Notes under the pieces: model-generated
The model's database searches: none
Seen by the model: only the letters and a program-made list of their open reading frames with translations
What the model was told of the DNA's origin: nothing
Translations under genes and position numbers: made by a program
Source: Candidatus Eremiobacterota bacterium
GTDB taxonomy: Bacteria; Vulcanimicrobiota; Vulcanimicrobiia; Vulcanimicrobiales; Vulcanimicrobiaceae
Assembly (NCBI GenBank): GCA_019235885.1
Contig: JAFAKB010000026.1
Coordinates: 1-64,000, forward strand
DNA: 64,000 nt
Reading direction: 5' to 3'
In this document: one piece after another, positions 20,963 through 40,652 of the stretch
How the letters are laid out: each line of letters opens with the position of its first letter
How positions within the stretch are numbered: position 1 is the stretch's first letter

Positions 20963-21104
20963 CTGCGCTACGCGAACTGCGAGAAGAACGCGTCGGCCGC
21001 CGCTGCGCTCGCCCCCACGGCGACCGCCCGCTCGCGCATGTTCCTCAGATTCGGTGCACGACGAGCGCGCGTCGGCGCACCGCCCGGGATTAGCGCGATC
21101 CGCC
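20963..21104 (-). pseudogene. Decayed fragment of manA 3' end
   Basis: These bases are clearly homologous to the last ~48 codons of manA at 28480-28620, in the same orientation. The shared blocks include CTCGCGCAT and GCGCGATCCGC, and the stop codon TAG and a C-terminus FFSQFA (manA: FFAQFP) are preserved. Several substitutions and small indels break the reading frame. It joins abruptly to a clpP fragment at about 21104. No promoter or start is attached, so it is non-functional debris marking a rearrangement. Confidence 0.75.
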
Positions 21105-21245
21105 CGGTCGACGAGATCCTGCGCGAACCTCTAGAGCGACGTCTACATGAGCGCGCTCGATGCGAAAGCGTACGGCATCATCGACGCCGTCCTCGACGGC
21201 ACGCACCGCAACGGCGAGGCCGCCGCTCAGAGCGAGCGTTCTTGA
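21105..21245 (+). pseudogene. Decayed fragment of clpP 3' end
   Basis: The sequence matches the final ~45 codons of clpP at 17000-17137. It reads PVDEILRE, then after a frameshift continues as [20 protein letters not shown] and THRNGEAA before a TGA at 21243-21245 (true Clp[22 protein letters not shown]). It is fused to a manA fragment on its left. The catalytic part of ClpP is absent. Source may be the clpP of this window or another paralog. Confidence 0.78.
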
Positions 21246-21536: not shown

Positions 21537-21784
21537 CAGACGCCTCGTTGTCGCTCGCCCCGTTCCCAGCACGGTGTGGGCATTGGCGGCCGAACGGACT
21601 CGCTCGACCCCCCCCCAGCACTCGAGCGGACGAGGCCGTACAGTTGCGGTGGATGCGTCGCGGTTCTCCCCAGCAAGAACGGACCCGCCTCCGTACGCCG
21701 TCGTCCGGACCACCCCAGCATCCGGACGGCCAAAAAGCAGACCCACGTCGCGACGCATTTCGCGGCGCCAGTATCGCAATCCAT

Positions 21785-22070
21785 GCGCCCGTAGCTCAAT
21801 GGTAGAGAAGGGGACCTGATAGGTGGGGTTCGTCACTCGAGCAATTGCAGGTCGCGGACGAAGGTTCGACACGTGGTTCGCCGCTGGGGGCGTCGTGCGT
21901 GGTCGGTCTGCAGCCTTTCGATCCCCGGCAATCGGCGCACGACGGTGCGAACGCGGCCGGAACATGCTTCGAGGGGTTCGGGTGTGCGAGCTCGGAACGA
22001 CCGGCCGCCCTTTGAGAGCAACGGCCTCCTAAGCCGTTGGTTGCGGGTTCGAATCCCGTCGGGCGTACCA
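21785..22070 (+). tRNA. tRNA-Arg(CCU) gene interrupted in the D arm
   Basis: Exon-like part 1 (21785-21803, plus AGAG) gives the acceptor 5' strand GCGCCCG, the D-stem GCTC and D-loop AATGGTA. Part 2 (from 22015) gives the rest: D-stem GAGC, anticodon arm ACGGC-CTCCTAA-GCCGT with anticodon CCT, T arm GCGGG-TTCGAAT-CCCGT, acceptor CGGGCGT and ACCA. Joined across the AGAG repeat they form a canonical 75-nt tRNA-Arg(CCU) with encoded CCA. The 211 intervening bases are structured. Whether the RNA is spliced or the gene is dead cannot be decided from sequence; every paired position is intact, which argues against old decay. The RiPP precursor begins 28 bases after it. Confidence 0.75.
21804..22014 (+). 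other. 211-bp structured insertion within tRNA-Arg
   Basis: The insertion is bounded by a 4-bp direct repeat AGAG (21804-21807 and 22015-22018). Its ends are complementary (AAGGGG near the left, CCCTTT near the right). Internal perfect helices include TTCGTC/GACGAA, CGTCGTGCGT/GCGCACGACG (10 bp with one G-U) and GCGGCCGG/CCGGCCGC (8 bp), plus a UUCG-capped hairpin GTGG-TTCG-CCGC. If it is an intron, the boundaries T|A...G|A would satisfy the group I end rule, but I could not find a convincing P7/guanosine-binding core. A small non-autonomous mobile element with a 4-bp target duplication is the main alternative. No protein-coding frame in it is credible. Confidence 0.6.
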
Positions 22071-22097: not shown

Positions 22098-22256
22098 ATG
22101 TCCAAGAAGGCCGACGTGCGTGAAGACGCCGCCAAGAGCGCACCGGAAGGGACCACGTCGTACGTGAAGCCCGAGGTGAAAACGCTCGACCAGCGCGACG
22201 TCTTGCGCGCGGTCGCGAAAGGATCGAAGTTCCCGGCACGCGGCTTCGCCGGCTGA
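22098..22256 (+). CDS. Candidate RiPP precursor peptide
   Basis: A 52-residue peptide with its own strong ribosome-binding site (GGAGG, 6 bases before ATG). The first ~40 residues are charged and leader-like. They contain SYVKPEVKTLDQRDVLRA (residues 21-38), a YxxP motif with following hydrophobic positions, which is the type of segment bound by PqqD-like recognition domains. The C-terminal tail KGSKFPARGFAG is small, Gly/Phe-rich and cysteine-free, and is the likely core. A hairpin separates it from the modification genes, and the next gene encodes a PqqD-like protein. It has no similarity that I know beyond the YxxP pattern. The precursor role is inferred from size, motif and context. Confidence 0.72.
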   Translation: MSKKADVREDAAKSAPEGTTSYVKPEVKTLDQRDVLRAVAKGSKFPARGFAG

Positions 22257-22360: not shown

Positions 22361-22630
22361 GTGTACCCGCTGCGTTCCGAGGGCGTGCAGGCTCGCAAAG
22401 TCGGACCCGACACGCTGATCCTACACTCCCTGCTCAAGCAATACCACGTGCTGAACCACGTCGCGGGCCGTATCTGGGATTTGGCCGACGGAACGCGCGG
22501 CGCCGACGAGATCGGCTCGATCGTCGCCGCCGAGTTCGCGGTCGACGAAGCGACCGCGCGCGCCGACGTCGTCAGCACGCTCGAGGCGCTCGCCGCGCTG
22601 CGCATCGTCGAGCTGGAACCGGCGCGGTGA
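22361..22630 (+). CDS. PqqD-like RiPP recognition element protein
   Basis: An 89-residue protein of the PqqD family. It has the N-terminal strand region, the conserved LILHSLLKQYHVLNHVAGRIWDLADGTR segment and the three-helix bundle ending in LAALRIVEL. PqqD-like proteins bind leader peptides and present them to radical SAM enzymes. The GTG start follows GAGGAGA. Its end overlaps the next gene by GTGA, implying coupled translation with the SPASM radical SAM enzyme. The YxxP segment of the peptide encoded just upstream is the probable ligand (inference). Confidence 0.85.
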   Translation: MYPLRSEGVQARKVGPDTLILHSLLKQYHVLNHVAGRIWDLADGTRGADEIGSIVAAEFAVDEATARADVVSTLEALAALRIVELEPAR

Positions 22631-23991
22631 GCGCGCAGCGCTATTTCGCCGCGCCAGTCCGCTGGCTGCGCAGCGACGAGACGCTGCTGGCCGTCAGCCG
22701 CGTCCGCCCGCGCTGGGCGTCGGTGAACGAGACGGCCGCCGCGATCGTGCAGTACTGCGAGAGCGACGGCGGTCGTTCGGCCGACGAGATCCACGCCGAC
22801 TTCGAAGCGCGCTTCGGCCCCGTCGCGCGCGGCGACCTCGGCGATTGGCTCGCCACGCTGGTGCGCACGGGGCTGCTCGCGGGCGAACGGGATTTCGCCG
22901 CCCAGGCGCCGCTCGGCTTCGACGCCTATCGGGTCGAGCATCTGTACGTCGAGCTACTCGCGCGCTGCAATTTGCGGTGCGTGCACTGCTTCATGGGCGG
23001 CGCGCCCGAGCGCACCGAGCGGCTGAGCGCGAACGAAGTGTTCGCGCTGCTCGAAGAGTTCGCCGCGAGCGGCGGGCGCTACGTCACGCTCTCCGGCGGC
23101 GAGCCGCTGATCTATCCCGAGTTCGAGGAGGTCGCGCGGCGCGTCGTGCAGCTCGGGATGTACGGCACGGTGATCACCAACGGCGTGAGGCTGCGCGCGC
23201 CGCAGCTCGCGCTGCTCGACGAGCTCGGATTCAACGTCGCGATCAGCCTCGACGGGATCACGCCGGAGGTCAACGAGCGCATCCGCGGGCGCAGCTCGCT
23301 ACCGACGATGGCGACGATCGAGCGCGCGCTCGCGGTGCTCGGACCCGACCGCGTCGTCCTCTCGTTCACGCCGGTGAAAGCGAACCTCGGCGAGCTCGAG
23401 AAGCTCTTCAGCTTCGTCGAGGAGCGGGGGATCCGCCGCCTCAACCTCTCGATCTACGAAGAGGTCGGGCGCGCGTCCGAGTTCGCCGGCACGCTCGCGC
23501 TCGACGACGCCGACCGGCTTCGCTTGATGCGCACCGTCTACCACAAAGCCGTCGAATTGGCGGGGCGGGTCGAGATCGACCTGAACGACACGCGCGACAT
23601 CTTGAGCCAGTTCAGCGTCGACCGCACGTCGGCCGAGCTGCACCCGCTCTGGCGCGGCGTGCGCGTCACCTCGTCGGGCGACGTCTACCCGAGCACGTTC
23701 GGAGCGGTCGAGCGCTTCCACCTCGGCAACGTGCGTGAGGTGCCGTTTCGCACCGTCCTCGCCTCCGGCGTGCTGCGCGAGCTGTACGCGGCGCTGATCG
23801 ACCGCGACGCGAAGACGCCGAAGTGCCGCGAGTGCACGTGGCGGCAGATCTGCCGCGGCGGCAGCGTCGCGTCGGCATATTGCGCGACCGGCGAGCTCTA
23901 CTCGCCCGATCCCTACTGCGAAGCGTACCTCGACGTCTTTCCGAGCATCGCCGCGGCGCTCGCCGAGCTCGCGCCCGCGCCGGTCGCATGA
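22627..23991 (+). CDS. Radical SAM/SPASM peptide maturase with PqqD-like N-domain
   Basis: A 454-residue radical SAM enzyme. Residues 1-95 resemble a second PqqD-like winged-helix domain (NETAAAIVQYCESDGG). The SAM-cluster motif is C114xxxC118xxC121 (CNLRCVHC), followed by TLSGGEPL. The C-terminal SPASM domain carries C400, C403, C409, C419 and C431 (KCRECTWRQICRGG), enough for auxiliary iron-sulfur clusters. Such enzymes install C-C, C-S or C-O crosslinks or epimerise residues in ribosomal peptides. The core candidate has no Cys, so thioether formation is unlikely; a carbon-carbon or other side-chain modification is more plausible (inference). The gene overlaps its neighbours on both sides. 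Confidence 0.88.
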   Translation: MSAQRYFAAPVRWLRSDETLLAVSRVRPRWASVNETAAAIVQYCESDGGRSADEIHADFEARFGPVARGDLGDWLATLVRTGLLAGERDFAAQAPLGFDAYRVEHLYVELLARCNLRCVHCFMGGAPERTERLSANEVFALLEEFAASGGRYVTLSGGEPLIYPEFEEVARRVVQLGMYGTVITNGVRLRAPQLALLDELGFNVAISLDGITPEVNERIRGRSSLPTMATIERALAVLGPDRVVLSFTPVKANLGELEKLFSFVEERGIRRLNLSIYEEVGRASEFAGTLALDDADRLRLMRTVYHKAVELAGRVEIDLNDTRDILSQFSVDRTSAELHPLWRGVRVTSSGDVYPSTFGAVERFHLGNVREVPFRTVLASGVLRELYAALIDRDAKTPKCRECTWRQICRGGSVASAYCATGELYSPDPYCEAYLDVFPSIAAALAELAPAPVA

Positions 23992-24905
23992 AAGCCTGCT
24001 TCGCGATCCCGAACCGCGAAGCGTTGTTCGCCCAGTGCGCGCGGCGCGCACCGGTGCGCGCCGCGTTCGAGTTCTTCGGAGCGGCGGTCGAGGTGCGCGC
24101 GAGCTCGGAGGCGCTGATCGAGCGGCTGCGCCGCGTCTACCGCCACTTCAGCGTTGCGCGCGCGGTCCCGTCCGCGCGGTTGATCCTGCTGGAACCCGGC
24201 GCCGGTTTTGACGACTACGTGCTGCTGGCGGACTGGTTCGGCTGGGGCATGCGCATCGCGAACGACGCGCTGCTGCACTACTACGCCTCGAAGCTGCTGC
24301 GGCTGTGGGTCGCCGAGCGCAGCGATCCCGAGTACGCGACCTTGCACGCGGCCTCGCTGGCCGGGCCGTCGGGCGGCGGCGTCGTGCTGATCGGCGAGGC
24401 GGCGGCCGGGAAGACGACGCTGACGCTGCGGCTGCTCGAGCGCGGATTCCGCTACCTCTCCGACGACACGACGGTGATCCGGCGGCGCGATCTCACCTGC
24501 GTTCCGTTCCCGATGGCGTTCGTGCTGCGCGCTGGCGAGGGGCAGCCCGACATCGCGCTGCTCGACGAGCCGCGCTGGCTCCTCGAGCGCTGGGACGCGA
24601 GCGGCGCGGCGTTCGCGCCCACCGTGCTCTACTTTCTCGGCGACCATCCGGCGCTCGGGCCGGGCGGTTTTCGCCGCATCTCGCCGGTCGAGACGGCACT
24701 GCGCGTGCTGCGCAACCTCGTCATGCCGCTCGGCAGCGACGCAAGCGCGTACACGGCGGCGCCGCAGAACTTCGACTTCGCGTGCCGGCTCGCGCTCGCG
24801 GCCGACGGTACGGAGATGAGCTCCAACGACCTCGACCGCGCGCTCGACGCGCTGGTCGCCGACTACCGGCTGCGGTTCCCGATTCGATCGGAAGGAGCGG
24901 CATGA
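23988..24905 (+). CDS. HprK-like P-loop kinase/phosphatase-type protein
   Basis: A 305-residue protein with a C-terminal HPr-kinase-like fold: P-loop GEAAAGKT (residues 136-143), LRLLERGFRYLSDDTTVI with the SDD motif (158-160) typical of HprK-related proteins, and a preceding helical domain that lacks the HPr-kinase sensor region. HprK-like proteins occur in RiPP loci together with PqqD proteins; some phosphorylate the peptide (as in paeninodin lasso peptides), others have unknown roles. ATGA overlaps at both ends place it firmly in the operon. Its substrate here might be the precursor, whose core contains a serine. That is inference only. Confidence 0.8.
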   Translation: MKACFAIPNREALFAQCARRAPVRAAFEFFGAAVEVRASSEALIERLRRVYRHFSVARAVPSARLILLEPGAGFDDYVLLADWFGWGMRIANDALLHYYASKLLRLWVAERSDPEYATLHAASLAGPSGGGVVLIGEAAAGKTTLTLRLLERGFRYLSDDTTVIRRRDLTCVPFPMAFVLRAGEGQPDIALLDEPRWLLERWDASGAAFAPTVLYFLGDHPALGPGGFRRISPVETALRVLRNLVMPLGSDASAYTAAPQNFDFACRLALAADGTEMSSNDLDRALDALVADYRLRFPIRSEGAA

Positions 24906-26263
24906 GCGACATCACCTTGGTGAACACGGTCCTTCCGAGCGAGGTGAAGGTCCCACCGCAGGGGATTCTCTACCTCACTGCGGCGCTCGAAGCCGCTGGG
25001 TTCGACGTCGATATCCGCGACTATCAGCTCTGCGAGTTCGACGCGCCGTGGGAGCCGGCGACGCTCGCGCGCTTCGTCGAGGGTTCGGCACCCGTGATCG
25101 GTTTCAGCGCGATGAGTTATGCGCTCCCGCTGGTCATCGCCACGGCGCGGCTCGTCAAGGAGCGCGCGCCGGAGAAAATCATCGTCGCCGGCGGGATCGG
25201 ACCGTCCGGCGCGGGCGCGCCGCTGCTCGACTACTGCCCGGCGATCGACGTCATCGTCGACGGCGAAGGCGAGCGCACGATCGTCGAGCTGATGCAGGCG
25301 ATTCGCGACGGGCGCGAGCTCGGCTCGGTGGCGGGGATCATCCACCGCGCCGGCGGGCGCGCGCGCGCGAACGCGCCGCGTCCGCGCATCGCCTCGATGG
25401 TCGAGCTCGCGCCGCCGGCGTACCATCGCGTCGACTTCTCGCGATACCGGCTGGTCGACAGCCAGTTCGGGCGCGGCTGCCCGTTCCGGTGCACGTTTTG
25501 CGACATCGCGCCGTTCTGGAACCGGCTCAACACGCACCGCCCGATCGAGCACTACGCCGACGAGCTGGAGCGCTTGGTCAACGTGCACGGCGCGCGCGAC
25601 GTCTTCATCGTCGACGACACGTTCGTTCTCGCGCGCAAGTCGATCCTACAGTTCTGCGGCGAGATCGAGCGGCGCGGTATTGAGTTCGAGTGGGGCTGCT
25701 ACGCGCGCGTCGACCTGATGGACGAAGAGCTGATCGAGCGCATGGCCGCCGCGGGATGCCGCAAGGTGTTCTACGGCGTCGAGTCCGGCTCGGACGCGGT
25801 GCTCGGCGAGATCGTCAAGGACACGACCGTGCAGATGATCATCGACGCGGTGACGCGCTCGCTGCGCCACTTCTCGTTCGTCACCGCCTCGTTCATGTGG
25901 GGCTTCCCCGGCGAGTCGCTCGACGATCTGCGGCAGACCGTGGCGTTCTTGCTCTACCTCACCTCGCTCGGCGCCTCGCCGCAACTCAACCTGGTCCTAC
26001 CGTACTCGTACTCGACGCTCTACAAGCAGTACCGCGACCAGATCCGCTTCGATCCGCGGTACTCCTCGCAGCTCCAGTTCTACGAAGGCGACGACCGCGA
26101 GTGGCTGTGCGCGATGATCGCCGAGCGCCCGGATCTCTTCTCGGCGTTCTACCAGCTCCCCACTCAGGCGTTCGAGGAGAAATGGAGCTACCTCGAAGAG
26201 ATCGGGCTTTCGCCGCACGAGCTGCAGTACGCGTACGATCACCCGGTGCCGGCGGCGCGATGA
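24902..26263 (+). CDS. B12-binding-domain radical SAM enzyme
   Basis: A 453-residue radical SAM protein of the B12-binding class. The N-terminal ~150 residues form the cobalamin-binding Rossmann domain (PPQGILYLTAALEAAGFDV ... VIVDGEGERTIVELM). The SAM-cluster motif is C193xxxC197xxC200 (CPFRCTFC), and the barrel includes VFYGVESGSDAVL and MWGFPGES. Such enzymes typically methylate unactivated carbons or rearrange substrates. The B12-domain signature DxHxxG is not obvious, as in many family members that still bind cobalamin base-off. ATGA overlaps link it to the HprK-like gene and to the synthetase-like gene. Peptide methylation or rearrangement is a reasonable guess. Confidence 0.88.
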   Translation: MSDITLVNTVLPSEVKVPPQGILYLTAALEAAGFDVDIRDYQLCEFDAPWEPATLARFVEGSAPVIGFSAMSYALPLVIATARLVKERAPEKIIVAGGIGPSGAGAPLLDYCPAIDVIVDGEGERTIVELMQAIRDGRELGSVAGIIHRAGGRARANAPRPRIASMVELAPPAYHRVDFSRYRLVDSQFGRGCPFRCTFCDIAPFWNRLNTHRPIEHYADELERLVNVHGARDVFIVDDTFVLARKSILQFCGEIERRGIEFEWGCYARVDLMDEELIERMAAAGCRKVFYGVESGSDAVLGEIVKDTTVQMIIDAVTRSLRHFSFVTASFMWGFPGESLDDLRQTVAFLLYLTSLGASPQLNLVLPYSYSTLYKQYRDQIRFDPRYSSQLQFYEGDDREWLCAMIAERPDLFSAFYQLPTQAFEEKWSYLEEIGLSPHELQYAYDHPVPAAR

Positions 26264-28413
26264 GGTACGACGCCGCGGCGGTCGAGGCGAAGTGGCAGGC
26301 GCGGTGGGCGGAGGAGCGCTGCTTTGCAGCCGACGCCGTGCCGGACGGCGAGCCGTTCTTCAACTTCGACGGCGGACCGTTTCCGAACGGTCCGCTGCAC
26401 ATGGGGCACGTGCGCACGTTCACGCTCGGCGACGTCATGGCGCGCTACCAGCGGATGCGCGGGCGGCGCGTCCTCTACTGTTTCGAGTTCGACGCGTTCG
26501 GGCTCCCCAACGAGCTCGCGGCGGAGGCGCTGGGCGTCACGCCGGAAGAGCTGACGCAAGCGAACATCCTGCGGATGCAGCGGCAAATGGTCCGCTTGGG
26601 TCTGAGCTACGACTGGGAACACGTCCCCGCGACGTGCGAGCCGCGCTATTACCGCTGGACGCAATGGCTGTTCCTTGCGCTGCGAGAGCGCGGCCTCGTC
26701 TACCGCGCCGCGGCGGACCTCAACTGGTGCCCCAGCTGCAGCACGACGCTCGCGCACATGCAGGTCGAGGACGGCCGGTGCTGGCGCTGCGAGAGCGCCG
26801 TCGAGACGCGCACGCTCACCCAGTGGTACGTCGCGATCTCGCGCTACTCGGCGATCCTTGCCGAAGGCCTCGACGAGCTCAGCGGGTTCAGCGACCGCGT
26901 CCGCAACGTGCTGCGCGGATTTCTCGGCGCGACGAGCGGGATCGAGGTCGAGCTCGCGCCGGCGGACGCTTCGGGCCTTGCGCTCAGAGCGTTCGTCGCG
27001 GACGAGCTTGCGAACGCCGCACCGGCGTACGCCGCCGTCGCTCCGGGACACCCCGTGCTCGCGGCGCTGCTTCCGGACGCGAGCGGCGAGCTCGCCGAAT
27101 GGTCGCGGCCGGCCGGCCGCGCGCGCCGGCGAACCGGGGGGCGCGCGGACGACGCGCTCGACGGATTCGACACGGGCCTGCGCGTCCGGTTGCCGGATCG
27201 CACGACGGTGATTCCGGTCTTCGTCGCGCGTTACGCCGAGCAGGGCTTCGCGACCGGAATCGAACTCGGCGTCCCGGCGAAGAGTCCGCGCGACCGCGCG
27301 TTCGCCGAACGGCACGGGCTCGCGTGGCGCGGCGGCGATGCGGCGCCGCTTCGCGGCCGGCGCGCGACGCACTATCACGTTCACGACTGGCTCGTCTCGC
27401 GCCAGCGCGCATGGGGAACGCCGATACCGATCGTGCACTGCACGGCGTGCGGCGAGGTGCCGGTCCCGGAGGATCGGCTTCCGGTGCGCGTTCCATCGCG
27501 TCCGCCGAACGGCGAGCCCGGCGGTCTTGCGGCGGTGCCGGGATTCGCCGAGACGGTGTGCCCGCGTTGCGATGCGCCCGCGCGGCGCGAGACCGATACG
27601 CTGGATTGCTACTTCGACGTCGTCTGGTGTTTTCTCGGCTGCGCCGCGCGGCTCGACGACGGCTTCCGCTTCTCGGCAGCGGACTTCGCGCCGTGGATGC
27701 CGGTCGACTGGTTTCACAACGGCCTGGACTCGTTCTTCTACATGCACCTCTACCGTTTCATCGGCCGGGTGCTCTACGAGATGGGAATCCTGGCGGAGCC
27801 CGAGCCGATTCGCCGCTACGCCGGGCACGACGCGGTGCTGCTCGCTGGCCGCAAAATGAGCAAGCACCACGGCAACACCGTCGCGCCGGACGAGATCGTC
27901 GAACGCGTCGGCGCCGACGTCTTGCGCTTGCAGATCCTCGGCGCGGCGAATCCGCTCAAGAGCGTCGAATGGTCGGCGTCGGGCGTGGAGCGCGCGCAGC
28001 GTTTCCTCGCGGATGCGTGGTCGCTCGTCTGCCGCGTCGCGGAAGACGTGCGTGACGGCGACGGCCCGTTGCGCGCTGCCGGCGACGAGCGCCGCCTACC
28101 GCTCGAGGACGCGGTCGATCAAAGCGTTCGCCGCATCACCGCATTCGTGGAGCGTTACCAGTACGCCGGCTGCATCCGCGAGTTGCAGAGCCTCTTGCGG
28201 CGCTTGCGCGCCGGGCTCGAGCGGCTCGAGCGGCGGCCCGACGACGAGCGGCTGCGCGCTGCGCTGGTCGCGAGCGCACGCCGGTTCGTGCAGGTGCTCG
28301 CACCGTTCGCACCGCACGCGGCCGAAGAGATGTGGGAACGCCTCGGCGGCGATGGTCTGGTCGCGGTCGCGCCGTGGCCCGGCGTCCTCCCCGCGTTCGG
28401 CGCGGCAGCCTGA
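26260..28413 (+). CDS. Leucyl-tRNA-synthetase-like protein in RiPP operon
   Basis: A 717-residue class Ia aminoacyl-tRNA synthetase homolog, closest in layout to LeuRS. It keeps HMGH (residues 47-50), KMSKH (532-536), WDAFGLP-like FEFDAFGLPNELAAEA, and zinc-type Cys pairs (157/160, 174/177, 394/397, 434/437). The CP1 insertion is present but eroded: the TTRPDT editing motif of LeuRS is replaced by unrelated sequence. The protein is shorter than true LeuRS (about 860) because the C-terminal portion is reduced. Start overlaps the radical SAM stop (ATGA). The context makes a housekeeping role unlikely. It may activate an amino acid, or transfer one from tRNA, for peptide tailoring. Confidence 0.85.
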   Translation: MRYDAAAVEAKWQARWAEERCFAADAVPDGEPFFNFDGGPFPNGPLHMGHVRTFTLGDVMARYQRMRGRRVLYCFEFDAFGLPNELAAEALGVTPEELTQANILRMQRQMVRLGLSYDWEHVPATCEPRYYRWTQWLFLALRERGLVYRAAADLNWCPSCSTTLAHMQVEDGRCWRCESAVETRTLTQWYVAISRYSAILAEGLDELSGFSDRVRNVLRGFLGATSGIEVELAPADASGLALRAFVADELANAAPAYAAVAPGHPVLAALLPDASGELAEWSRPAGRARRRTGGRADDALDGFDTGLRVRLPDRTTVIPVFVARYAEQGFATGIELGVPAKSPRDRAFAERHGLAWRGGDAAPLRGRRATHYHVHDWLVSRQRAWGTPIPIVHCTACGEVPVPEDRLPVRVPSRPPNGEPGGLAAVPGFAETVCPRCDAPARRETDTLDCYFDVVWCFLGCAARLDDGFRFSAADFAPWMPVDWFHNGLDSFFYMHLYRFIGRVLYEMGILAEPEPIRRYAGHDAVLLAGRKMSKHHGNTVAPDEIVERVGADVLRLQILGAANPLKSVEWSASGVERAQRFLADAWSLVCRVAEDVRDGDGPLRAAGDERRLPLEDAVDQSVRRITAFVERYQYAGCIRELQSLLRRLRAGLERLERRPDDERLRAALVASARRFVQVLAPFAPHAAEEMWERLGGDGLVAVAPWPGVLPAFGAAA

Positions 28414-28469: not shown

Positions 28470-28479
28470 GGACGCTGCG

Positions 28480-29550
28480 CTAAGGGAACTGCGCGAAGAA
28501 CGCATCGGCCGCCGCCCGGTCCACGGCAGCGGTCGCCCGCTCGCGCATCTTCCGCAGATTCGGCTGCGGGTGGACGACGAGCGCGCGCGTCGGCTCGCCG
28601 CCCGGGATCAGCGCGATCCGCTCGAAGCTCGCCGGCGTCACCACGCTCTGCCACGGCTCGAGCACGGCGCTCGGGCCGGGCGCGTCGACGGCGGGCCCGT
28701 CGATCCGCAGGTGCGCTTCCATCGCGGTGATCGTGAGCGGCAAACCGTCGGTCACGAGGTACGCTTCGTCGCGCGTGATCGCGACACGCTCGACCAGGAA
28801 GTTGCGGTCGGCGACCAGCAGCGCGCGCTCGAGCCCTTCCTCGCGAAACTCCAGCGGCGCCACCGCGCCGGGAAACGTCGCGCGGAAGTCGAGCACGTCG
28901 CCGGCTTTTTGCAGGTGCAGCTCGCGCGGCTTGCCGTCGGCGCCGACCCGGTTCCAGTCGAAGATGCGGTACGTCAGATCGCTGGCTTGCTGCGTCTCGA
29001 ACAGCTGAATCCCGGCGCCGATCGCGTGCAGCGTTCCGGCCGGCAGATAAAATACGTCGTGCGGATGGACGGCGATGCGGCGCAACACGTCGCCGAGCGT
29101 CCCGTCGGCGACGCGGCGCTCGTACTCCGCGCGCGTCACGTCGCGCGTCCAGCCGAGCACCAGCTCGGCGCCGGGCTCGCAGGCGAGGATGTACCAGCAC
29201 TCCGTCTTGCCGTTCGGCTGGCCTTCGACGCGCTGCGCGTACGCGTCGTCCGGATGGACTTGCACCGAGAGCGGCTCGCGCGCGTCGATGATCTTCGTCA
29301 GCACCGGAAACCTGCGCGCCGGATCGATCGCTCCCGTCAGCGCCTCGTGCAGCTCGCCGCGCAGGTCTGCGAGCGTCTTGCCGGTGAGGGCGCCGTTCGC
29401 GACGCGGTTCTCGTCCCAGCACTCCCACGACTCGCCGAGCCGCTGGTGCGGATCGCCCGCCTTTCCGTAGTGCTTGACCAGGGCGTCGCCGCCCCAGATC
29501 GCGGGCGCCTCTTTCGGTTCCAGAATGTAGGGATAGAGCCGGACACTCAC
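28480..29550 (-). CDS. manA: Mannose-6-phosphate isomerase, type I
   Basis: A 356-residue zinc-dependent cupin-fold isomerase that interconverts fructose-6-phosphate and mannose-6-phosphate. Metal-site motifs are visible: LSVQVHPDD (Q and H), TECWYIL (E) and PAGTLHAIG (H). The N-terminal IWGGDALVKHYGK and GESWECWDEN segments match short bacterial ManA enzymes. The GTG start has no strong ribosome-binding site; TAGGGT lies 7 bases upstream, so this gene too may be leaderless. It probably supplies GDP-mannose or related precursors for envelope sugars. A decayed copy of its 3' end lies at 20963-21104. Confidence 0.9.
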   Translation of the reverse strand: MSVRLYPYILEPKEAPAIWGGDALVKHYGKAGDPHQRLGESWECWDENRVANGALTGKTLADLRGELHEALTGAIDPARRFPVLTKIIDAREPLSVQVHPDDAYAQRVEGQPNGKTECWYILACEPGAELVLGWTRDVTRAEYERRVADGTLGDVLRRIAVHPHDVFYLPAGTLHAIGAGIQLFETQQASDLTYRIFDWNRVGADGKPRELHLQKAGDVLDFRATFPGAVAPLEFREEGLERALLVADRNFLVERVAITRDEAYLVTDGLPLTITAMEAHLRIDGPAVDAPGPSAVLEPWQSVVTPASFERIALIPGGEPTRALVVHPQPNLRKMRERATAAVDRAAADAFFAQFP

Positions 29551-32711: not shown

Positions 32712-34686
32712 TCACGCAACGCCTTCGAATCGCGAGTCCGACCGCCCCGCCGCGCCGGCGCTGGACGACGCGATCGCGCGCGCGGTCGACGCGCTCTTTC
32801 AGCTCCAGCATCCGGACGGGTACTGGTGGGCCGAGCTGCAGTCGAACGTCTCGATCACGGCGGAGGTCGTGCTGCTGCACCACGTGTGGGGACGCTTCGA
32901 AAAGGTGCCGCGTGCGGCGGCGGAGCGGTACTTTCGCGGCGAGCAGCGCGAGCACGGCGGGTGGGAGCTCGCTTTCGGCGACGGCGGCGAGCTGAGCGTC
33001 ACCGTCGAGGCGTACATGGCCCTGCGCCTGCTCGGCGTTGCGGCCGACGATCCGGCCTTGCGGCGCGCGCGTGAGTTCGTGCTCGCGCGCGGCGGAATCA
33101 CGCGCACGCGCATCTTCACCAAGATGCACCTCGCGCTGATCGGCGCGTACGAGTGGGCGGGGCTGCCCGCGCTGCCGCCGTGGCTGATGGTCCTTCCCGA
33201 GCGCGGTCCGTTCTCGATCTACGAGCTTTCGAGCTGGGCGCGCGGCAGCACCGTGCCGCTGATCCTGCTCTTCGACCGCAAGCCCGTCTACGCGCCGGTG
33301 CTGCAGCTCGACGAGCTGTACGCCGAAGGCCGTGCGAACGCGCAGTTTGCGCTTCCAGCCGCGAACGGCGCCACCGAGCGCTTCTTCAACGGCGTCGACC
33401 GCGTGCTGAAATGGAGCGAGCGAACAGGACTCGTGCCGTTTCGCGCGCGCGGCATCGAGCTGGCCGAGCAGTGGACGGTCGAGCGGCAAGAGCACACCGG
33501 CGACTGGGGCGGGATCATCCCCGCGATGCTCAACGCGATGCTGGCGCTGCGCGCGATCGGCTACGACGCCAGCGATCCCGTCGTCGTGCGCGGCTGGTCG
33601 GCGATCGACGCCTTCACGATCACCGCGAACGGCGCGTACCGCGTGCAGCCGTGCATCTCGCCGGTCTGGGACACCGGCTTGGCGGTGCGCGCGCTGACCG
33701 ACGCCGGCGTGCCGCGCGACGATCCGCGGCTGGTCAGCGCCGCGACGTGGCTGCTCGAGAAGCAGATCGTCGCGCGCTACGGCGACTGGTCGGTGAAGAA
33801 CCGCACCGGAAAACCGGGCGGCTGGGCGTTCGAGTTCGAGAACTCCTGGTATCCCGACGTCGACGACACCGCGGTCGTCGCGATGGCGCTCGCCGCGGTC
33901 GAGCATCCGCAGCCCGAGCGCGTGCGCGGCGCGATCGCGCGCGCGGAGGAGTGGGTCGCGACGATGCAGTGCAGGACCGGCGGCTGGGCCGCCTTCGACG
34001 TCGACAACGACCAGGACTGGCTCAACCGCATCCCCTACGGCGACCTGCGGGCGATGATCGATCCGAGCACCGCCGACGTCACCGCGCGCGTGCTCGAGAT
34101 GCTCGCGCGCTGCGAGCTGCACGGCTTCGGCCGCGCGCGCGTCGAGCGCGGTCTGCGCTTTTTGCTGAACGAGCAGGAAGCCGACGGCGCCTGGTTCGGC
34201 CGCTGGGGCGTGAACTACGTGTACGGCACGAGCGGCGCGCTCGCCGCGTTGTGCGCCCTTCGACAAGCTCGGGATGACGTGGAGCCGGCTCAAGACGACG
34301 CGACGCTGCGGGCGATCGTGCGCGGCGCGGTGTGGCTGAAGAGCGTGCAGCAAGCGAACGGCGGTTGGGGCGAAACGACCGACAGCTATCGCGATCCTGC
34401 GCTGCGCGGGAGCGGTCCGCCGACGGCGAGTCAAACGGCGTGGGCGCTGATCGGCCTGATCGCGAGCGCGCAGCGTTTGCCGCAGATCGCGGAGGCGTTC
34501 GTGCCGTCGATCGAGCGGGGCGTCGAGTACCTGCTGCGCGCGCAGCGTGCCGACGGCAATTGGGATGAGCCGGAGTTCACCGGCACCGGCTTCCCGCAGC
34601 ACTTCTACTTGAACTACCACGCCTACCGGCTGTACTTTCCGCTCGCCGCGCTCGGGCGCTACGCGGCGTTCGCAGCCGCCCGTTAA
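32704..34686 (+). CDS. shc: Squalene-hopene cyclase
   Basis: A 660-residue class II triterpene cyclase that converts squalene to hopene/hopanol at the membrane. The protonating DxDD motif is DVDD (residues 385-388, in YPDVDDTA). Multiple QW-type repeats are visible (QxxDGxW near 34-41, GGWAFEFENSW, QCRTGGWAAFD, QQANGGWGE, QRADGNWDE). Length is normal. The TTG start overlaps the divergent hpnB start by 8 bases; no other start is available before the conserved N-terminal helix. A copy of the dispersed REP-like element lies in frame within the variable loop near residue 520. Confidence 0.93.
   Translation: MTIHATPSNRESDRPAAPALDDAIARAVDALFQLQHPDGYWWAELQSNVSITAEVVLLHHVWGRFEKVPRAAAERYFRGEQREHGGWELAFGDGGELSVTVEAYMALRLLGVAADDPALRRAREFVLARGGITRTRIFTKMHLALIGAYEWAGLPALPPWLMVLPERGPFSIYELSSWARGSTVPLILLFDRKPVYAPVLQLDELYAEGRANAQFALPAANGATERFFNGVDRVLKWSERTGLVPFRARGIELAEQWTVERQEHTGDWGGIIPAMLNAMLALRAIGYDASDPVVVRGWSAIDAFTITANGAYRVQPCISPVWDTGLAVRALTDAGVPRDDPRLVSAATWLLEKQIVARYGDWSVKNRTGKPGGWAFEFENSWYPDVDDTAVVAMALAAVEHPQPERVRGAIARAEEWVATMQCRTGGWAAFDVDNDQDWLNRIPYGDLRAMIDPSTADVTARVLEMLARCELHGFGRARVERGLRFLLNEQEADGAWFGRWGVNYVYGTSGALAALCALRQARDDVEPAQDDATLRAIVRGAVWLKSVQQANGGWGETTDSYRDPALRGSGPPTASQTAWALIGLIASAQRLPQIAEAFVPSIERGVEYLLRAQRADGNWDEPEFTGTGFPQHFYLNYHAYRLYFPLAALGRYAAFAAAR
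34257..34278 (-). repeat. REP-like element inside shc coding sequence
   Basis: CCTTCGACAAGCTCGGGATGAC is a copy of the dispersed element in reverse orientation. It is translated in the cyclase frame as part of ALRQARDDV, a loop between QW-repeat helices, and does not interrupt the gene. Confidence 0.6.
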
Positions 34687-35417
34687 AGCTTGATGCCGAC
34701 GCCGGCGTACGGATCGGAGCGGATGAAGCGGTTCAGGTTCGAGAGGTTGCGGCCGGTCCGCACTTCGCTCGCGTAGCCCAAGACGCCGTAGAGCGGCGTG
34801 CGCGCGCCGCGCAGGACCGCGCCCAGCTCGATCTTCGAGATGTCGAAGGCAGGCGTCATCGTTCGCGTGGGAAGCGTCTCGGTGACGTACGTGCCGGACG
34901 CCGCAGGATAGTAGTACATCGACGCGAACGGCCGCACCCCCGGCGCGGTCGACGGCCGCAGCTCGAGGCCGAGCCCGGCGCCGGTGAGCTGCGGGTAGTG
35001 ATAGTTCGTCGTCGTGTGCACGACGCCCAGGCCGGCGTACAGCGGAAGGACGCGCGCGATTCGCCGTTCGAGGTGCGCTTCGAACGAGGAGTCGCGCGCC
35101 AGGAACGGGCGCACCGTGCCGAACCCGCCTTCGAGCCGCGCGTAGCGCGTGAGCGAGCCCGGGCCGGCGCTCTCGGTCAGGTAGACGCTGCGCCAGTACT
35201 GCAGCATGACGGCGTAGTCGCCGAACGCCACGCCGGCCCGCACGCCGAGCGACTGCGGGTATTGGTCGCCATCGCTCGAGCGCTCATTGTAGGTATCGCC
35301 GAGCGGGCGGATCAGCTCGAGCGATGCGGTCGGTTCAGGCTGCGCCGCGCACGGCAGCGCGCCGCAAGCGGCGGCCGCAAGCGCTGCAACCGCAGCGGTG
35401 ACGATTCGGCGCTGCAC
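34683..35417 (-). CDS. Outer-membrane beta-barrel-like protein
   Basis: A 244-residue exported protein with a signal peptide (AAVAALAAAACGALPCAA) and a series of amphipathic strands with alternating aromatic residues (YAVMLQYWRSVYL, GLGVVHTTTNYHYP, PFASMYYYPAASG), ending in a strand GVGIKL. This is the layout of small outer-membrane barrels. No specific family is recognised. It converges on shc with a 4-base overlap of stop codons and is followed in the same direction, upstream, by two propeller lipoprotein genes that could share its transcript. Its position in the hopanoid locus is suggestive but not informative. Confidence 0.65.
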   Translation of the reverse strand: MQRRIVTAAVAALAAAACGALPCAAQPEPTASLELIRPLGDTYNERSSDGDQYPQSLGVRAGVAFGDYAVMLQYWRSVYLTESAGPGSLTRYARLEGGFGTVRPFLARDSSFEAHLERRIARVLPLYAGLGVVHTTTNYHYPQLTGAGLGLELRPSTAPGVRPFASMYYYPAASGTYVTETLPTRTMTPAFDISKIELGAVLRGARTPLYGVLGYASEVRTGRNLSNLNRFIRSDPYAGVGIKL

Positions 35418-35421
35418 CCGC

Positions 35422-37281
35422 TCAGTCGCCGAACGTGATGTAGGTCGGACCGCTCAGCTGCGTGTCGGCGCCCTGGTAGGTGAACGCCGGTGTCGAGCCG
35501 CTTACGGTCGGGTCGAAGATCGAGATGCTGTTGTTGCCGAAGTTGGTGACGTAGACGTCGATGAACGGCGGCATCTGCTCGCTCGCCGCGCTCGGGTGGC
35601 GGATCGCGATCCCCCACGGCTGGTTGAGGCCGGTGAAGGTGCGGGTGGGCGTCGCCGCCCCGTTCGCACCCGAAGCATAAACGAGCACCGTGTTGCTGTT
35701 GAAGCTCGCGACGTACAGGTTGTCGCTGCCGTCGAGCGCAACGCCGCGCGGGCCGCTCAGGCCGCTCGTCCCCGCCGTGATCTGCCGGTTCGGCGCGAAG
35801 CTTCCGTTCTGATCGGCCGGGAAGTAGACGTTGATCGTATTCGTCGTGAAGTTCGCCACGTAGAGATTCCCGGCGCTGTCGTACGCGATCCCCTCCGGGT
35901 TCACCAGCTGCGTGGACGGGCCGGCGAGCGTCGCAACCGGGGGACCGCTCATGCCCGGTGCAAACGTCAACACCGCATCGAACAACGACGGCGCCTCCGG
36001 AACGCGGCGAGAGCTGGAGAGATTGGCGGTCGCGCACAGGTGGCAGACGACGCTGACGTTCCCGTTCGGCGCGGTCGCGACGCCGTACCCGGACGTGGCG
36101 ACGCTGTCGGTGAAGTCCGGCGGCTCGTTTCCGTTGGGACACGTGTTCGGCGGGTTGTAGCCGTTGAGCGTCGTCATGGACGAGCCGGCGACGTACAAAA
36201 TTCCGCTCGTGTCGTAGCTGACGCCGCGCGGCGCGTTCAGCCCCGTGGCGGCGCCGCCCAGCACGCGCGTCGGCGCCTCGTCCATTCCGTTCGCGACGGT
36301 GGGGAACGCGGTGTTTCCGTAGTACGGGAAGTACGAGGTCACCGTGTTCGAGGTCGAGTTCGACACCGTGATGTTACGGTTGTTGAACACCCCCGAGATG
36401 TTGTCGATCTGCAGCGCGTTCGTGCCGGTCGCGACGTTCGGAGTCGTCGCCGAGATGCCGCGTGACGTCCCCGGGACGATGACGACGCCGCGCCCGCTCG
36501 GCGTCGGGTCGTCGACCGAACCCCGCCGGCAGGCGATCGCGGTCAGCGGGCTGCGGCCGTTGTAGCGCACCGTCACCGGGGTTCCGGGCGCGGAGATCGT
36601 TGACGGCGACAACGCATCGAGATCTGTCGTGCCGGAACTCGTGTCCTCGCTCAGCGTAATGGTGACCGGGTTGCCGGCGGTATCGGAGTACCCGCCCGGA
36701 CCGACGATCGTGTTCCCGCTCGCGTCCTGCGCGTTGACAAGCACGCCGATCGTCATCGGAACGTTCTCGACCGCCGCACCCTGACCGTTGGGGTAGCTGA
36801 AATCGACGGTGATGTGCTGGACGACGCCGTTCATCACGACGTTCAGCGGGTTCACCGCGCCGGCGGTGATCGTCGCGTTCATCGACGCGGTCGACAGTTT
36901 GTTGCCCAGCCCGCCGGGCTGGTCGTAGGCGGTGAAGGTCAGGGTCGACGTCCCACCGTTCAGATCCGCGTTGACGGTGCACTGCAGCGCGCCGCTTCCG
37001 AGTGTCGTGCAACCCGGCGAGCTCGCGCTCAGGTTCGCGACGGTCACCACCGAACCGCCGGAGGAGATGACGAGCGATTTCGTCGCGCTGCTCACGTAGC
37101 GCGTGCGGCGCACGCCGCTGGTGGTCTTCCCGGACGGAACCGTGATGATAATCTGCGCGGTGCCCTTCGCGGCACCGCCACCCGGCGGGGACGGCGCACC
37201 GGGAGCCGATGAACCACCGCCACTGCCGCCGCACCCGGCAAGCATCACGAACGCGGTCAAGACTGAGAGCCGGCGCGTCAT
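35422..37281 (-). CDS. Lipoprotein with Ig-like region and NHL propeller
   Basis: A 619-residue lipoprotein: lipobox VMLAGCGGSGG, a Ser/Gly/Pro linker, a conserved module with IIITVPSGKTTSGVRRTRYVS...SLVISSGG that is also present in the next gene, one or two Ig-like beta domains (about residues 60-290), and an NHL-type propeller (about 330-619) with repeats such as GIAYDSAGNLYVANF and GVALDGSDNLYVASF. Probable surface protein for binding or scaffolding. It follows its paralog with an ATGA overlap and ends 4 bases before the barrel gene start, so three genes likely form one operon. Confidence 0.75.
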   Translation of the reverse strand: MTRRLSVLTAFVMLAGCGGSGGGSSAPGAPSPPGGGAAKGTAQIIITVPSGKTTSGVRRTRYVSSATKSLVISSGGSVVTVANLSASSPGCTTLGSGALQCTVNADLNGGTSTLTFTAYDQPGGLGNKLSTASMNATITAGAVNPLNVVMNGVVQHITVDFSYPNGQGAAVENVPMTIGVLVNAQDASGNTIVGPGGYSDTAGNPVTITLSEDTSSGTTDLDALSPSTISAPGTPVTVRYNGRSPLTAIACRRGSVDDPTPSGRGVVIVPGTSRGISATTPNVATGTNALQIDNISGVFNNRNITVSNSTSNTVTSYFPYYGNTAFPTVANGMDEAPTRVLGGAATGLNAPRGVSYDTSGILYVAGSSMTTLNGYNPPNTCPNGNEPPDFTDSVATSGYGVATAPNGNVSVVCHLCATANLSSSRRVPEAPSLFDAVLTFAPGMSGPPVATLAGPSTQLVNPEGIAYDSAGNLYVANFTTNTINVYFPADQNGSFAPNRQITAGTSGLSGPRGVALDGSDNLYVASFNSNTVLVYASGANGAATPTRTFTGLNQPWGIAIRHPSAASEQMPPFIDVYVTNFGNNSISIFDPTVSGSTPAFTYQGADTQLSGPTYITFGD

Positions 37282-38999
37282 CGGACGTTCACCCGTCCGA
37301 CGCCCGGGATGAGATTTTCGGTGAACCACACGTTCCCGTCCGAGCCCGGCGCGATCCCGAGCGGCTCGGACGACACCGTGATCCCGTAGCCGCTCCCCGG
37401 CGGCGGCTGCGGATACAACGTCAGCGTCCCGGACGGCGTCACCTTGCCGATCTCGTCGAAGAACGTTCCGGTGAACCACAGGTTGCCGTCGGGGCCTGCG
37501 GCGATGCAGCCGTTCGTGTCGTTCCCGGTGAAGCGCGTGATCGTTCCGGACGGCGTGATCCGCGCGACGTCCGAACCTTCGGTGAACCAGACGTTGCCGT
37601 CCGGTCCCGGAGCGACGCCGGAGACGAACGTCTGCGTCAGCGCGTACTCCGTCACCGCACCGGCCGGCGTGATCTGCGCGATCTTCGGCGGGTTTCCGCT
37701 GGTGACGTCTTGCTCGAGCCACCACACGTTGCCGTTCGGACCCTTCGCCATCGAGCACGGCCCCAGAAAGGCTGCCACGGCGCTGTAGGTGATCCCGGTC
37801 GTGAACATCGTCACCGCCCCGGAGGTGGTAATCCGGCCCACCGCAGGATGCGCCTCGTCGGTGAACCACAGGTTGCCGTCGGCGGCGGCCGCGATCGACG
37901 CCGGTTTCGTTCCGGCCGGGATCCCCGTGCTGAACTCGGTGATCGTCCCGTTCATCGTGATCCGGCCGATCCGCCCGGCGCCTTCGGCGAACCACATGTT
38001 ACCGTCGGGGCCGGCCGTGATCCCGGCCGCCGACGAGAACGGCGTCATGCCGCCCGAGAACTCCGTCACCTTGCCGTGCGGCGTGATGCGGCCGACGCGA
38101 TCGCCGGCGGTCTCGGTGAACCAGACGTTGCCGTCGGGACCGAGCGCTGCGCCGGACGGGCCGCTGTTCGCCGAGATGCCGCTGCGGAACTCGGTCACTA
38201 GCGCGCTGGTCCCGCCGATGGTCAGGGTTGCGTTCTTCGACGTCACGCCCGGCGCCGAAGCGGTGATCGTCGCGCTCGCCAGCGCGCCGCCGGTGTAGTG
38301 CAGCGTGACGTCGCCGGTCGGCGCGGTAAAGGTGTGCTGCGCGGGGAGCGTCGTCGCGCCGCTCGCGTCGGAGTCGCTGAGCGTGACCGTAAGCGCGTTC
38401 CCGCTCGCGTCGGCGAACGGCTGCGGGCCGACGATCACGTTCCCGTCGGGATCGAGCGCGTTCAAGATGATCGCCGTATCCGCGGCCGTTCCGGACGGGA
38501 GCGTTGCGGGGTCGAGCGCGAGCGCGAGCGAGGCGACGATCCCGCTCAGGGTCAGATTGATCGTCGTCGGCCCGCTCGGCGCGGCGGTCACTTGCAGCGC
38601 CGCGACGGCGACCTTGGTCCCGGTCCCGCCGGGATGGTCGTAGGTCGCGATGGTCAACGTGTTCGTTCCGGACGGAACGGTCGCGCTCACCGTGCAGGTC
38701 AGCGGGGTCGATCCGGTCGGCGGGGTGCAGCCCGGCGACTGCGGCGTCAGATTGGCGGTGACGATCACCGGCCCGCCGTTCGCGATCGTCAGCGACTGCG
38801 TCGACGGGCTCACGTACGCGGGGCGCCGTCGCGCGGCGGACGAGCTCGAACCCGACGGGACGCGGATGACGAAGGTCAGGCTCGCGGGCGCGCGCGGACC
38901 CGCCGGCCCACTCGTCGCCGGAGCGACGGACACGCCACCGCCGCCGCAGCTACAGAGCACGGCGGCGAACGCTATGAATGCGACGACTCGACGAACCAT
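37278..38999 (-). CDS. Lipoprotein with Ig-like region and Vgb-type propeller
   Basis: A 573-residue paralog of the preceding lipoprotein in N-terminal architecture: lipobox VLCSCGGGG, then the shared module [28 protein letters not shown] (split here for length: [11 protein letters not shown] and [11 protein letters not shown]), Ig-like domains, and a C-terminal seven-bladed propeller with repeats [30 protein letters not shown] and [10 protein letters not shown]. This repeat is typical of virginiamycin B lyase-like proteins, here more likely a binding module. First gene of the three-gene minus-strand group. The promoter region lies between it and the divergent TP-repeat lipoprotein gene. Confidence 0.78.
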
Positions 39000-39160
39000 G
39001 TGCGGTCCTCTCGGACAGGATCCCGTCTCGCTGCAATACGCAGCGTCCTTGGCCGAATCCCTTGCACGCCCCGGCGAGGCAAAGGAAAACCTGCCGGCTT
39101 CCGCTTACTCATGGGCCAAGCGTTCGCGGCGGGACGGCGCGCGCCGAAAAGGAGATCGCC

Positions 39161-39757
39161 ATGGCGTTGCGCCGCGATCCGGCGTTCATTCTGCGGTGGT
39201 TCGTTTTGGTCGGTGCCCTCTTCGTCGGCGCCGGTCTTCCCGCGTGCAGCGGCTCGGGCGGAACCGCATCGGTCGTCGTGCCGACTCCGACACCGTCGCC
39301 GTCGCCGACGCATTCACCAACGCCGACACCATCCGCGACGCCTACGCCGTCGCCGACTCCAACTCCAACTCCAACTCCGACGCCGACTCCAACGCCGACG
39401 CCGACGCCGACGCCGACACCGACACCGACACCAACGCCAACACCGACCCCGACGCCGGTGCCGGCGAATCCCGTCGCATCGCCGAACCCGATGTTCTTCA
39501 GCAACACCGGCGCGGCGCACAATCAGACGTTGACGGTGACCGAGCAGAACTACACGGGTTCGCTTACGGTTTCCAACGGCAGCCCGTCGTGCAGCGGCAT
39601 CGTAACCGTCTCACCGAGCTCCTCACCCAGCACGCCGGCCGCGTTCACCGTGACGCCGGTCGCGGCGGGAATGTGCAATCTCGTCGTGACCGATAGCGGC
39701 GGACGCAGCGTCACCGTGAACGTGACCGTGACGGTCACGCCGGTAACGGTTACGTAG
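39161..39757 (+). CDS. Lipoprotein with long Thr-Pro repeat
   Basis: A 198-residue lipoprotein: signal segment [22 protein letters not shown] with lipobox-like LPAC, then about 60 residues of TP/SP repeats, and a small C-terminal Ig-like beta domain (residues 105-198; [27 protein letters not shown] and [12 protein letters not shown]). The repeat should form an extended rod lifting the domain off the membrane. AAGGAGA lies 6 bases before the ATG. The last 8 bases overlap the convergent diiron protein gene. Specific role unknown. Confidence 0.75.
39281..39462 (+). repeat. Thr-Pro-encoding simple repeat
   Basis: A run of ACNCCN hexamer units (about 180 bases) coding for TPTPTP in the lipoprotein gene. 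Synonymous third positions vary (ACG CCG, ACT CCA, ACA CCG), so the repeat is old rather than freshly expanded. Confidence 0.8.
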
Positions 39758-40652
39758 CGGCGTTCTCCGCGCCGGCTCGTGCCGTCGCCGCGCGCACGCC
39801 GTTGTGCGGCGGTGCCGGTGCGTTTGCGTCGCGGCGCGGCGGCAGCATGCGAATTCCGAGCAGCAGCGCGGTCGCGACCGCGGGCATGATCGTTGGTTTC
39901 AGCAGCCGGCGGTCGAGCCGCGCCATCACGCGGCGGTTCTCGGCGAGCGCCGCTTCGAGAAACATCAGCGGCGTAATGCTCTTCACGATGGCGTCGAGCT
40001 CGGGATCGTCCAGCCTGCTCGGAATCAGCGGCGCCGCGGCGGCGCCCTGCGCGGTTCCGAGGATCGCGCGCACGTGGTACCGCAGCGAGGTGAAGGTGCG
40101 CAGGAACGGCTTGTCGCGTCCCGCGAGCGCTTCTTCGTAACGCCACCAGTTGATGAAGAACGCGATGTGGCGCGCCTCTTCGTAGAGCACGTTCTCGAAG
40201 ATCGCCATCAGCGGCTCCGGAAAGAGCCCTTTCTCCCTGGCCAGGGCAAAGGCGCCGAAACCAACGAACGAGTCGCTGCACTCACCGAAACCGAAGATGC
40301 AGAAATCGTCCCTGCGGGCGGGCGGGTCCTCGATCGGGATCTCCGGGACGTCGATCTGGTAGCGCTCGACGACGTGCGACATCAAGCGCCCGTGGCGGGT
40401 CTCCTCGACGCCCTGCAGCGCGACCGCTTCGCGGATCAGCGGGTCCTCCAGCGTGCGCGCGAACGCGGTCACCATCCGCCCGGCGCGCTGCTCGATCGAG
40501 CGCGCGTAGCTCCAGAACGGGAAGGCGCGCAGCCGTGCCAGGTGGGCGGCGCCGAGCACCGGCCACGGCAGCTCGGCCGGCTCGAACGGGACGTGCGTGT
40601 CGATGAACGTCCGGCAAAAAACGTCGCGGTGCTGAGGCGTCCCGACGAGCAT
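39750..40652 (-). CDS. Ferritin-like diiron protein of hopanoid locus
   Basis: A 300-residue helical protein with diiron motifs E84xxH87 (EETRHGR) and E159xxH162 (EEARHIAFF), plus further glutamates in the helices between. It belongs to the ferritin-like superfamily, distinct from the diiron protein at 10.1 kb. It is divergent from the squalene synthase gene with 83 bases between them, and converges with the TP-repeat lipoprotein. An oxygenase or desaturase-type role on hopanoids or other lipids is possible given the setting, but no member with known function comes to mind. ATG 40652 is chosen; the open frame continues upstream without conserved sequence. Confidence 0.65.

Follow-up and report, generated by a model that had tools for sequence, protein, structure and literature searches.

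The question raised by this locus is what becomes of a tRNA whose gene is interrupted in the D-loop: is it a dead gene, is the insert removed from the transcript, or does the whole form a functional RNA? In the stretch of DNA that was analysed (64,000 nucleotides, hereafter the window), a tRNA-Arg(CCU) gene at 21785-22070 on the plus strand has its D-loop split by exactly 211 bp. The 5' part of the tRNA (21785-21803, start GCGCCCGTAGCTCAATGGT) comprises the acceptor 5' strand, positions 8-9, the D-stem 5' strand GCTC (21794-21797) and the D-loop bases A14 A15 T G18 G19 T20. It is followed by the 211-nt insert (21804-22014), a structured RNA domain whose conservation is described below, and by the 3' part (22015-22070), which contains the D-stem sequence GAGC (22016-22019), the anticodon arm with CCT, the T arm, the acceptor 3' strand and an encoded CCA (22068-22070). 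Deletion of the 211 nt gives a 75-nt tRNA-Arg(CCU) with all four arms and CCA, as seen both with ARAGORN and in the fold of the joined sequence, and once the insert is removed the gene classifies as a tRNA (RF00005) of the isoacceptor Arg(CCU). This confirms the interruption recognised in the original prediction, which had also called the tRNA perfect after joining across the repeat AGAG; the four arms and the CCA are there, with a G1-U72 wobble as the sole imperfection.

Owing to the AGAG repeat (first copy 21804-21807, second copy 22015-22018) the borders of the insert are ambiguous by 4 bases, i.e. 21804-22014 can slide up to 21808-22018, and the junction falls in the D-loop or at the beginning of the D-stem 3' strand. 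Judging from the sequence, GCTC at 21794-21797 can pair with GAGC at 22016-22019 while the insert is still in place, so formation of the cloverleaf would not depend on removal of the insert. Since the D-stem can pair in this way, what had been termed a D-arm interruption is more exactly one of the D-loop. Genes of this kind are missed or misnamed by tRNA finders: ARAGORN without the intron option found no tRNA in the 64-kb window, with the intron option it named the locus tRNA-Ile, and an Rfam search of the locus detected the tRNA 3' half only.

The interrupted tRNA stands at the head of an island of ~7.5 kb (21.0-28.5 kb) in which all genes lie on the plus strand, a gene-cluster context that the original prediction had not noticed. 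The flanking sequences, up to ~21.0 kb and from ~28.5 kb onwards, lie next to each other with no more than a few dozen bases between them in at least five genomes of the same genus, which identifies 21.0-28.5 kb as an island; the comparison with close relatives that had been proposed thus showed the surroundings of the tRNA to be missing at the same site in related genomes. Origin from a contaminant contig was considered and rejected, as the clpP-macB region beside the island has its counterpart in same-genus genomes, where it is syntenic and 83% identical over 1.9 kb. Downstream of the tRNA, and 27 nt from its CCA to the ATG, follows a gene for a RiPP-type precursor peptide of 52 aa (22098-22256), for which family and profile searches gave no family match. 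The next genes encode a PqqD-family protein (peptide chaperone or recognition element; 22361-22630, Pfam PF05402, E 4e-13), a radical SAM/SPASM enzyme with an N-terminal PqqD-like domain (22627-23991), an HprK-related P-loop protein (23988-24905; weak HprK_rel_A and Hpr_kinase_C matches, below cut-off), a B12-binding radical SAM enzyme (24902-26263) and a leucyl-tRNA synthetase paralog of 717 aa (P0003, 26260-28413). A short precursor beside PqqD/RRE and radical-SAM enzymes, kept together as a set, makes this a RiPP cluster, and the cluster itself is thus of a known kind.

Several features of the flanking DNA were seen alongside. The end of the downstream gene is repeated imperfectly and in direct orientation on both sides of the island (20965-21103 and 28477-28620), which suggests integration or recombination at that gene's end, and at the left edge of the island (21104-21228) lies a diverged partial copy of the clpP 3' region (~16.98-17.11 kb). 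Another stretch, of about 5 kb (34670-39834), likewise has no counterpart at the syntenic position in five genomes of the genus.

Using the B12 radical SAM enzyme as query we scanned the genomes of 84,980 species and found one relative (67% identity), in a MAG titled Rhodobacter sp. that belongs to another phylum, one represented by more than 400 genomes in the set searched as compared to 149 for our own phylum. This second locus (L134) contains the same six genes in the same order, with identities of 45-67% (60% for the SPASM enzyme), and the same interrupted tRNA at its head. The tRNA is interrupted at the same place by an insert of 213 nt, compared with 211 nt in the window, the precursor ATG follows the CCA after 68 nt on the same strand, and the C-terminal end of the precursor, KGSKFPARGFAG, is identical in both loci. 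A normal tRNA-Arg(CCU) is also kept by the Rhodobacter MAG. Further searches with the B12 radical SAM enzyme around this MAG, in 390 genomes of its order, 385 of its class and 398 of its phylum, returned only the MAG itself, and about 1,100 further genomes around it thus gave no third locus. The SPASM enzyme was found in our own genome only among 117 genomes of its class, and neither radical-SAM enzyme had a relative in viral contigs. Two other candidates were set aside, a plasmid match for the precursor (E = 6), which was taken as chance, and an IMG/VR pattern match (L142) that consists of two ordinary neighbouring phage tRNAs.

The two halves of the tRNA are identical at 71 of 76 positions between the loci (19/20 bases on the 5' side, 21785-21804, and 52/56 in the 3' part), whereas the neighbouring genes are 61-77% identical at codon positions 1-2 and 43-57% at third positions. 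The few differences keep the cloverleaf: C31-G39 is changed to U31-G39, and the others are at positions 26, 32, 44 and 20, which are unpaired or tertiary. The tRNA halves are therefore under far stronger selection than the surrounding genes, and their conservation, set against that of the third codon positions, is not what would be expected of a dead or a recently transferred tRNA. A dead gene is accordingly refuted. What is conserved in two phyla is the tRNA halves together with the position, length and fold of the insert and the order of the genes.

In the structural alignment the two inserts share 92 of 220 columns (42% identity), and a plain local alignment of the two was not significant, as its score was reached by 179 of 1000 shuffles. 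This test was replaced by a joint fold-and-align program of the Sankoff type with base-pair probabilities from ViennaRNA, which gave a score of 111.7 for the two inserts as compared to a maximum of 94.7 over 900 controls. None of 600 shuffled controls (mean 62-69) and none of 300 natural segments of like GC (maximum 94.6) reached this score, and the antisense strands of the same insert pair scored 52.5. The common fold has 66 pairs, 33 of which are changed on both sides; as these pairs are counted in a pair-optimising alignment, the evidence lies in the control scores and not in the count. Enforcing the common fold costs 2.0 kcal/mol in the window and 0.7 kcal/mol in L134. The original prediction had described a structured insert with several perfect helices. 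The structure is borne out by the fold common to the second locus, but taken alone the window insert is no stabler than shuffled sequence (z 0.29), and at 66% GC the helices prove nothing by themselves; the L134 insert, in turn, is unusually stable (z -2.19).

The predicted architecture is a long interrupted closing stem that leads through a junction to two domains. The 5' strands of the closing stem (21807-21840; 6+5+3+11 bp) pair with 21978-22013, beginning with the complementary insert ends that had been pointed out before and that amount to 6 bp (21807-21812 with 22008-22013). This stem is common to L134, where 16 of its 25 pairs are changed on both sides. The first domain (21846-21912), with a 9-bp stem (21846-21854/21904-21912) and hairpins at 21855-21868 and 21870-21901, holds most of the conserved sequence of the insert, and the second (21913-21977) has a 9-bp stem (21913-21921/21969-21977) and an inner 5-bp helix. 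Outside the central domain the registers given by MAFFT disagree with the structural alignment, and for that reason a covariance model (R1) was built on the central domain (21846-21912) only. Taken together, the comparison of the two loci, which supplies the evidence for structure, shows that the insert has a conserved predicted RNA fold.

One explanation is that a small mobile element, bounded by inverted repeats and having duplicated 4 bp of its target, inserted into a spare tRNA-Arg(CCU) and killed it. The AGAG repeat and the pairing ends in the window fit such an event, and so does the intact tRNA-Arg(CCU) that a search of the genome for an uninterrupted copy revealed at G000:C20:31950. 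The insert itself, however, is single-copy in its own genome, and BLASTN in 98 related genomes found no relative of it; matches in G002:C28 and G065:C18 were rejected, being short and with no tRNA around them in the surrounding DNA. A search with R1 in 149 genomes of the same phylum returned the window and one weak match in another family of the class (G068:C6:45975-46037, 29 bits, E = 0.0135 for one genome), which is at chance level. Thus, of the two signs by which a mobile-element pseudogene was to be recognised, the intact tRNA was found and the dispersed copies, which also define a MITE or other small mobile element, were not. In addition, the 4-bp repeat is not intact in L134, and the recurrence of the insert at an identical site in another phylum, with the tRNA halves and the cluster conserved, contradicts the killing of a dispensable tRNA. 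We therefore regard this explanation as highly improbable, while noting that the insert may have begun as an ancient mobile-element insertion that was later put to use.

If the tRNA is functional, the insert could be an intron. To our knowledge the bacterial tRNA introns described so far are group I introns in the anticodon region, as in Azoarcus tRNA-Ile and Agrobacterium tRNA-Arg(CCU). The length of the insert and its tRNA-Arg(CCU) host recall the group I introns of alphaproteobacteria, and in the window one possible junction, GGT/AGAG...TTTG, has the U before the 5' site and the G at the end that group I splicing calls for. None of the four junctions allowed in L134 satisfies this rule, for lack of a U before the 5' site; moreover the group I core (RF00028) had no match at E<=10 in either the window or L134, and the site is in the D-loop and not in the anticodon loop. 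An unusual group I intron, which the original prediction had offered as a possibility, is thus very improbable. A parallel in position is the chloroplast trnG-UCC gene, whose D-arm is likewise interrupted, by a group II intron within the D-stem. The chloroplast intron has a domain V and exceeds the present insert in length several-fold, whereas the group II models of Rfam, including Domain V, had no match at E<=10 in either locus. In fact the covariance-model search with Rfam at E<=10 gave no meaningful match in either locus to any family other than tRNA, which excludes recognisable group I and group II introns.

We know of no archaeal-type tRNA splicing endonuclease in bacteria. Inspection of the junctions by eye revealed no consistent bulge-helix-bulge, in which the insert differs from archaeal tRNA introns; these can also lie outside the anticodon loop, at non-canonical sites, and are marked by a bulge-helix-bulge (reviewed in PMC4090602). 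Cyanobacterial tRNA-Leu and tRNA-fMet carry group I introns in the anticodon region, and none are found in other parts of cyanobacterial tRNAs (PMC5733544). The bacterial group I introns thus resemble the present insert in being structured RNAs of ~200 nt whose precise removal restores the tRNA, but differ from it in their anticodon-region site and in having a group I core, which was not found here. We conclude that the interrupted tRNA is a selected RNA and neither a pseudogene nor a known intron.

It is possible that the insert belongs to an undescribed class of intron, one of the options named in the original prediction, self-spliced or spliced by the host, and that the 75-nt tRNA thus formed serves the cluster or translation. 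At both loci a perfect tRNA results when the insert is cut out exactly, the two ends of the insert can pair, the conserved core sequence and fold could be those of a ribozyme, and the tRNA halves are strongly conserved. On the other hand, neither insert matches an intron or ribozyme family of Rfam at E<=10, the cluster has no recognisable gene for an endonuclease, a ligase or a maturase, and the cloverleaf can form without splicing. We consider a new intron to be one of two live explanations, though the less likely of them. Still less probable is that the insert is cut out without religation, as the intervening sequences of rRNA are by RNase III, so that a tRNA in two pieces remains, joined through the acceptor and D stems. 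The 25-bp closing stem in four blocks is the type of helix that RNase III cuts, and the 5' piece would, going by its sequence, stay bound by 7+4 pairs, but we know of no two-piece tRNAs of this kind in bacteria. As we recognise no machinery for splicing and the cloverleaf can form with the insert in place, we judge retention of the insert to be somewhat more probable than its removal by splicing.

Because an intact tRNA-Arg(CCU), of the type common to the genus, is encoded elsewhere in the genome, the interrupted tRNA is an extra one. A20 is a main identity base for ArgRS in E. coli and was present in 46 of 46 normal tRNA-Arg(CCU) gene calls examined. Both interrupted tRNAs lack it and so do not have the D-loop of a canonical arginine acceptor. 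The interrupted tRNA does retain C35 in its anticodon, which also serves ArgRS as an identity base. AGG, the codon read by the CCU anticodon, is absent from both precursor genes, and this speaks against a use of the tRNA in decoding the precursor.

The one gene of the cluster that would need a tRNA, going by its annotation, is the LeuRS paralog. The class I motifs HMGH and KMSK, corresponding to HIGH and KMSKS, are retained at both loci (26260-28413 and L134:9396-11534), and the catalytic half is highly conserved between them while the CP1 editing region has diverged, which suggests that the paralogs may have lost editing. The paralog is not a full bacterial LeuRS: it scores 477.5 bits, below the leuS_bact equivalog cut-off of 548.4, and has 717 aa as compared to 822-880 aa in solved LeuRSs, to which it aligns only as far as the anticodon-binding domain, the LeuRS C-terminal domain being missing. 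The leucine-pocket segment reads GGPFP in place of M-F/L-P-Y-P and is altered in the same way in both loci. An AlphaFold model of the paralog was poor (pLDDT 37) and was left unused. An extra LeuRS gene in a natural-product cluster is also known from agrocin 84, where the immunity protein AgnB2 (31.7% identical to P0003 over 99% of P0003) is a resistant LeuRS; the present paralog differs in its changed pocket motif, its missing C-terminal domain and the accompanying tRNA. Two plasmid LeuRS matches (H22, H23) were ordinary full-length LeuRSs without such a cluster.

The likeness to agnB2 also bears on a different role for the RNA, as a cis-acting leader or a decoy, i.e. a tRNA-like regulator of the RiPP operon, or self-protection against a product that attacks tRNA or its synthetase. 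The RNA lies directly upstream of the precursor gene in both loci (27 and 68 nt from CCA to ATG, same strand), and a synthetase paralog can be a resistance gene, as for agrocin 84. However, an encoded CCA and a complete, conserved tRNA are more than a leader needs, and the altered leucine pocket and the lack of a C-terminal domain speak against a paralog that replaces the normal LeuRS as a drug-resistant form, so we hold this role to be improbable.

The explanation that we prefer, and to which we give about an even chance, is that the locus encodes the dedicated tRNA of a horizontally transferred RiPP cluster, with the synthetase as its partner and a structured domain in its D-loop. The tRNA would be transcribed as the leader of the operon, given the 27 nt between its CCA and the precursor start codon, and set free by the usual processing of tRNA ends. 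It would fold into a cloverleaf in which the ~211-nt domain forms an extra D-loop arm at positions 20-22, closed by the long stem. Lacking A20, it would be charged mainly by the LeuRS-derived synthetase of the cluster, for which the arm on the elbow may mark it, and the same arm could bar it from the ribosome; the amino acid would then go to modification of the precursor peptide. More tentatively, and with less confidence than in the dedicated tRNA as such, we suggest a natural orthogonal synthetase-tRNA pair for a RiPP pathway, in which the D-loop domain acts as an element of both identity and sorting by binding the LeuRS-derived enzyme and barring the ribosome. If so, an amino acid, possibly a non-standard one, would be delivered to a peptide without translation.

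Several points count against the proposal of a dedicated tRNA. The ArgRS identity base C35 is kept, there are only two loci, the window insert on its own is not unusually stable, and precise excision would equally give a perfect tRNA. Its weak point is the acceptor step, which is left unexplained because no peptide-aminoacyl-tRNA ligase (LanB-like) was recognised among the six island proteins. In this the cluster differs from the pearlins, which use such a ligase and so define the PEARL systems to which the present cluster cannot be assigned. What pearlins and related peptide natural products that depend on aminoacyl-tRNA (PMC9303977, PMC11962472; review PMC12945691) otherwise have in common with our proposal is a scaffold peptide made on ribosomes, a set of tailoring enzymes and the requirement for aminoacyl-tRNA. 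The available text of PMC12945691 and PMC11962472 has no mention of a tRNA gene encoded in the cluster. The open-access literature yielded no RiPP cluster with these components and no D-loop insertions, which is weak evidence of absence.

Whether the domain is retained or spliced out as an intron, the RNA would be of no described family, a conclusion based on two loci. It would be either a bacterial tRNA with a large D-loop domain or a class of tRNA intron outside the anticodon region. Since at both loci it is linked to a RiPP precursor and a remodelled synthetase, the RNA may well belong to a natural, dedicated tRNA-synthetase pair that works outside translation, and such a pair might be of use for attaching unusual amino acids to peptides.

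Just upstream of the tRNA, at 21604-21735, we also observed three short hairpins with the common loop CCCCAGCA. This 8-mer occurs in 5 copies in the 64-kb window, 3 of them in these hairpins, where 0.8 would be expected for the whole window. Possibly, the hairpin trio is a small RNA with C-rich loops or a protein-binding array.
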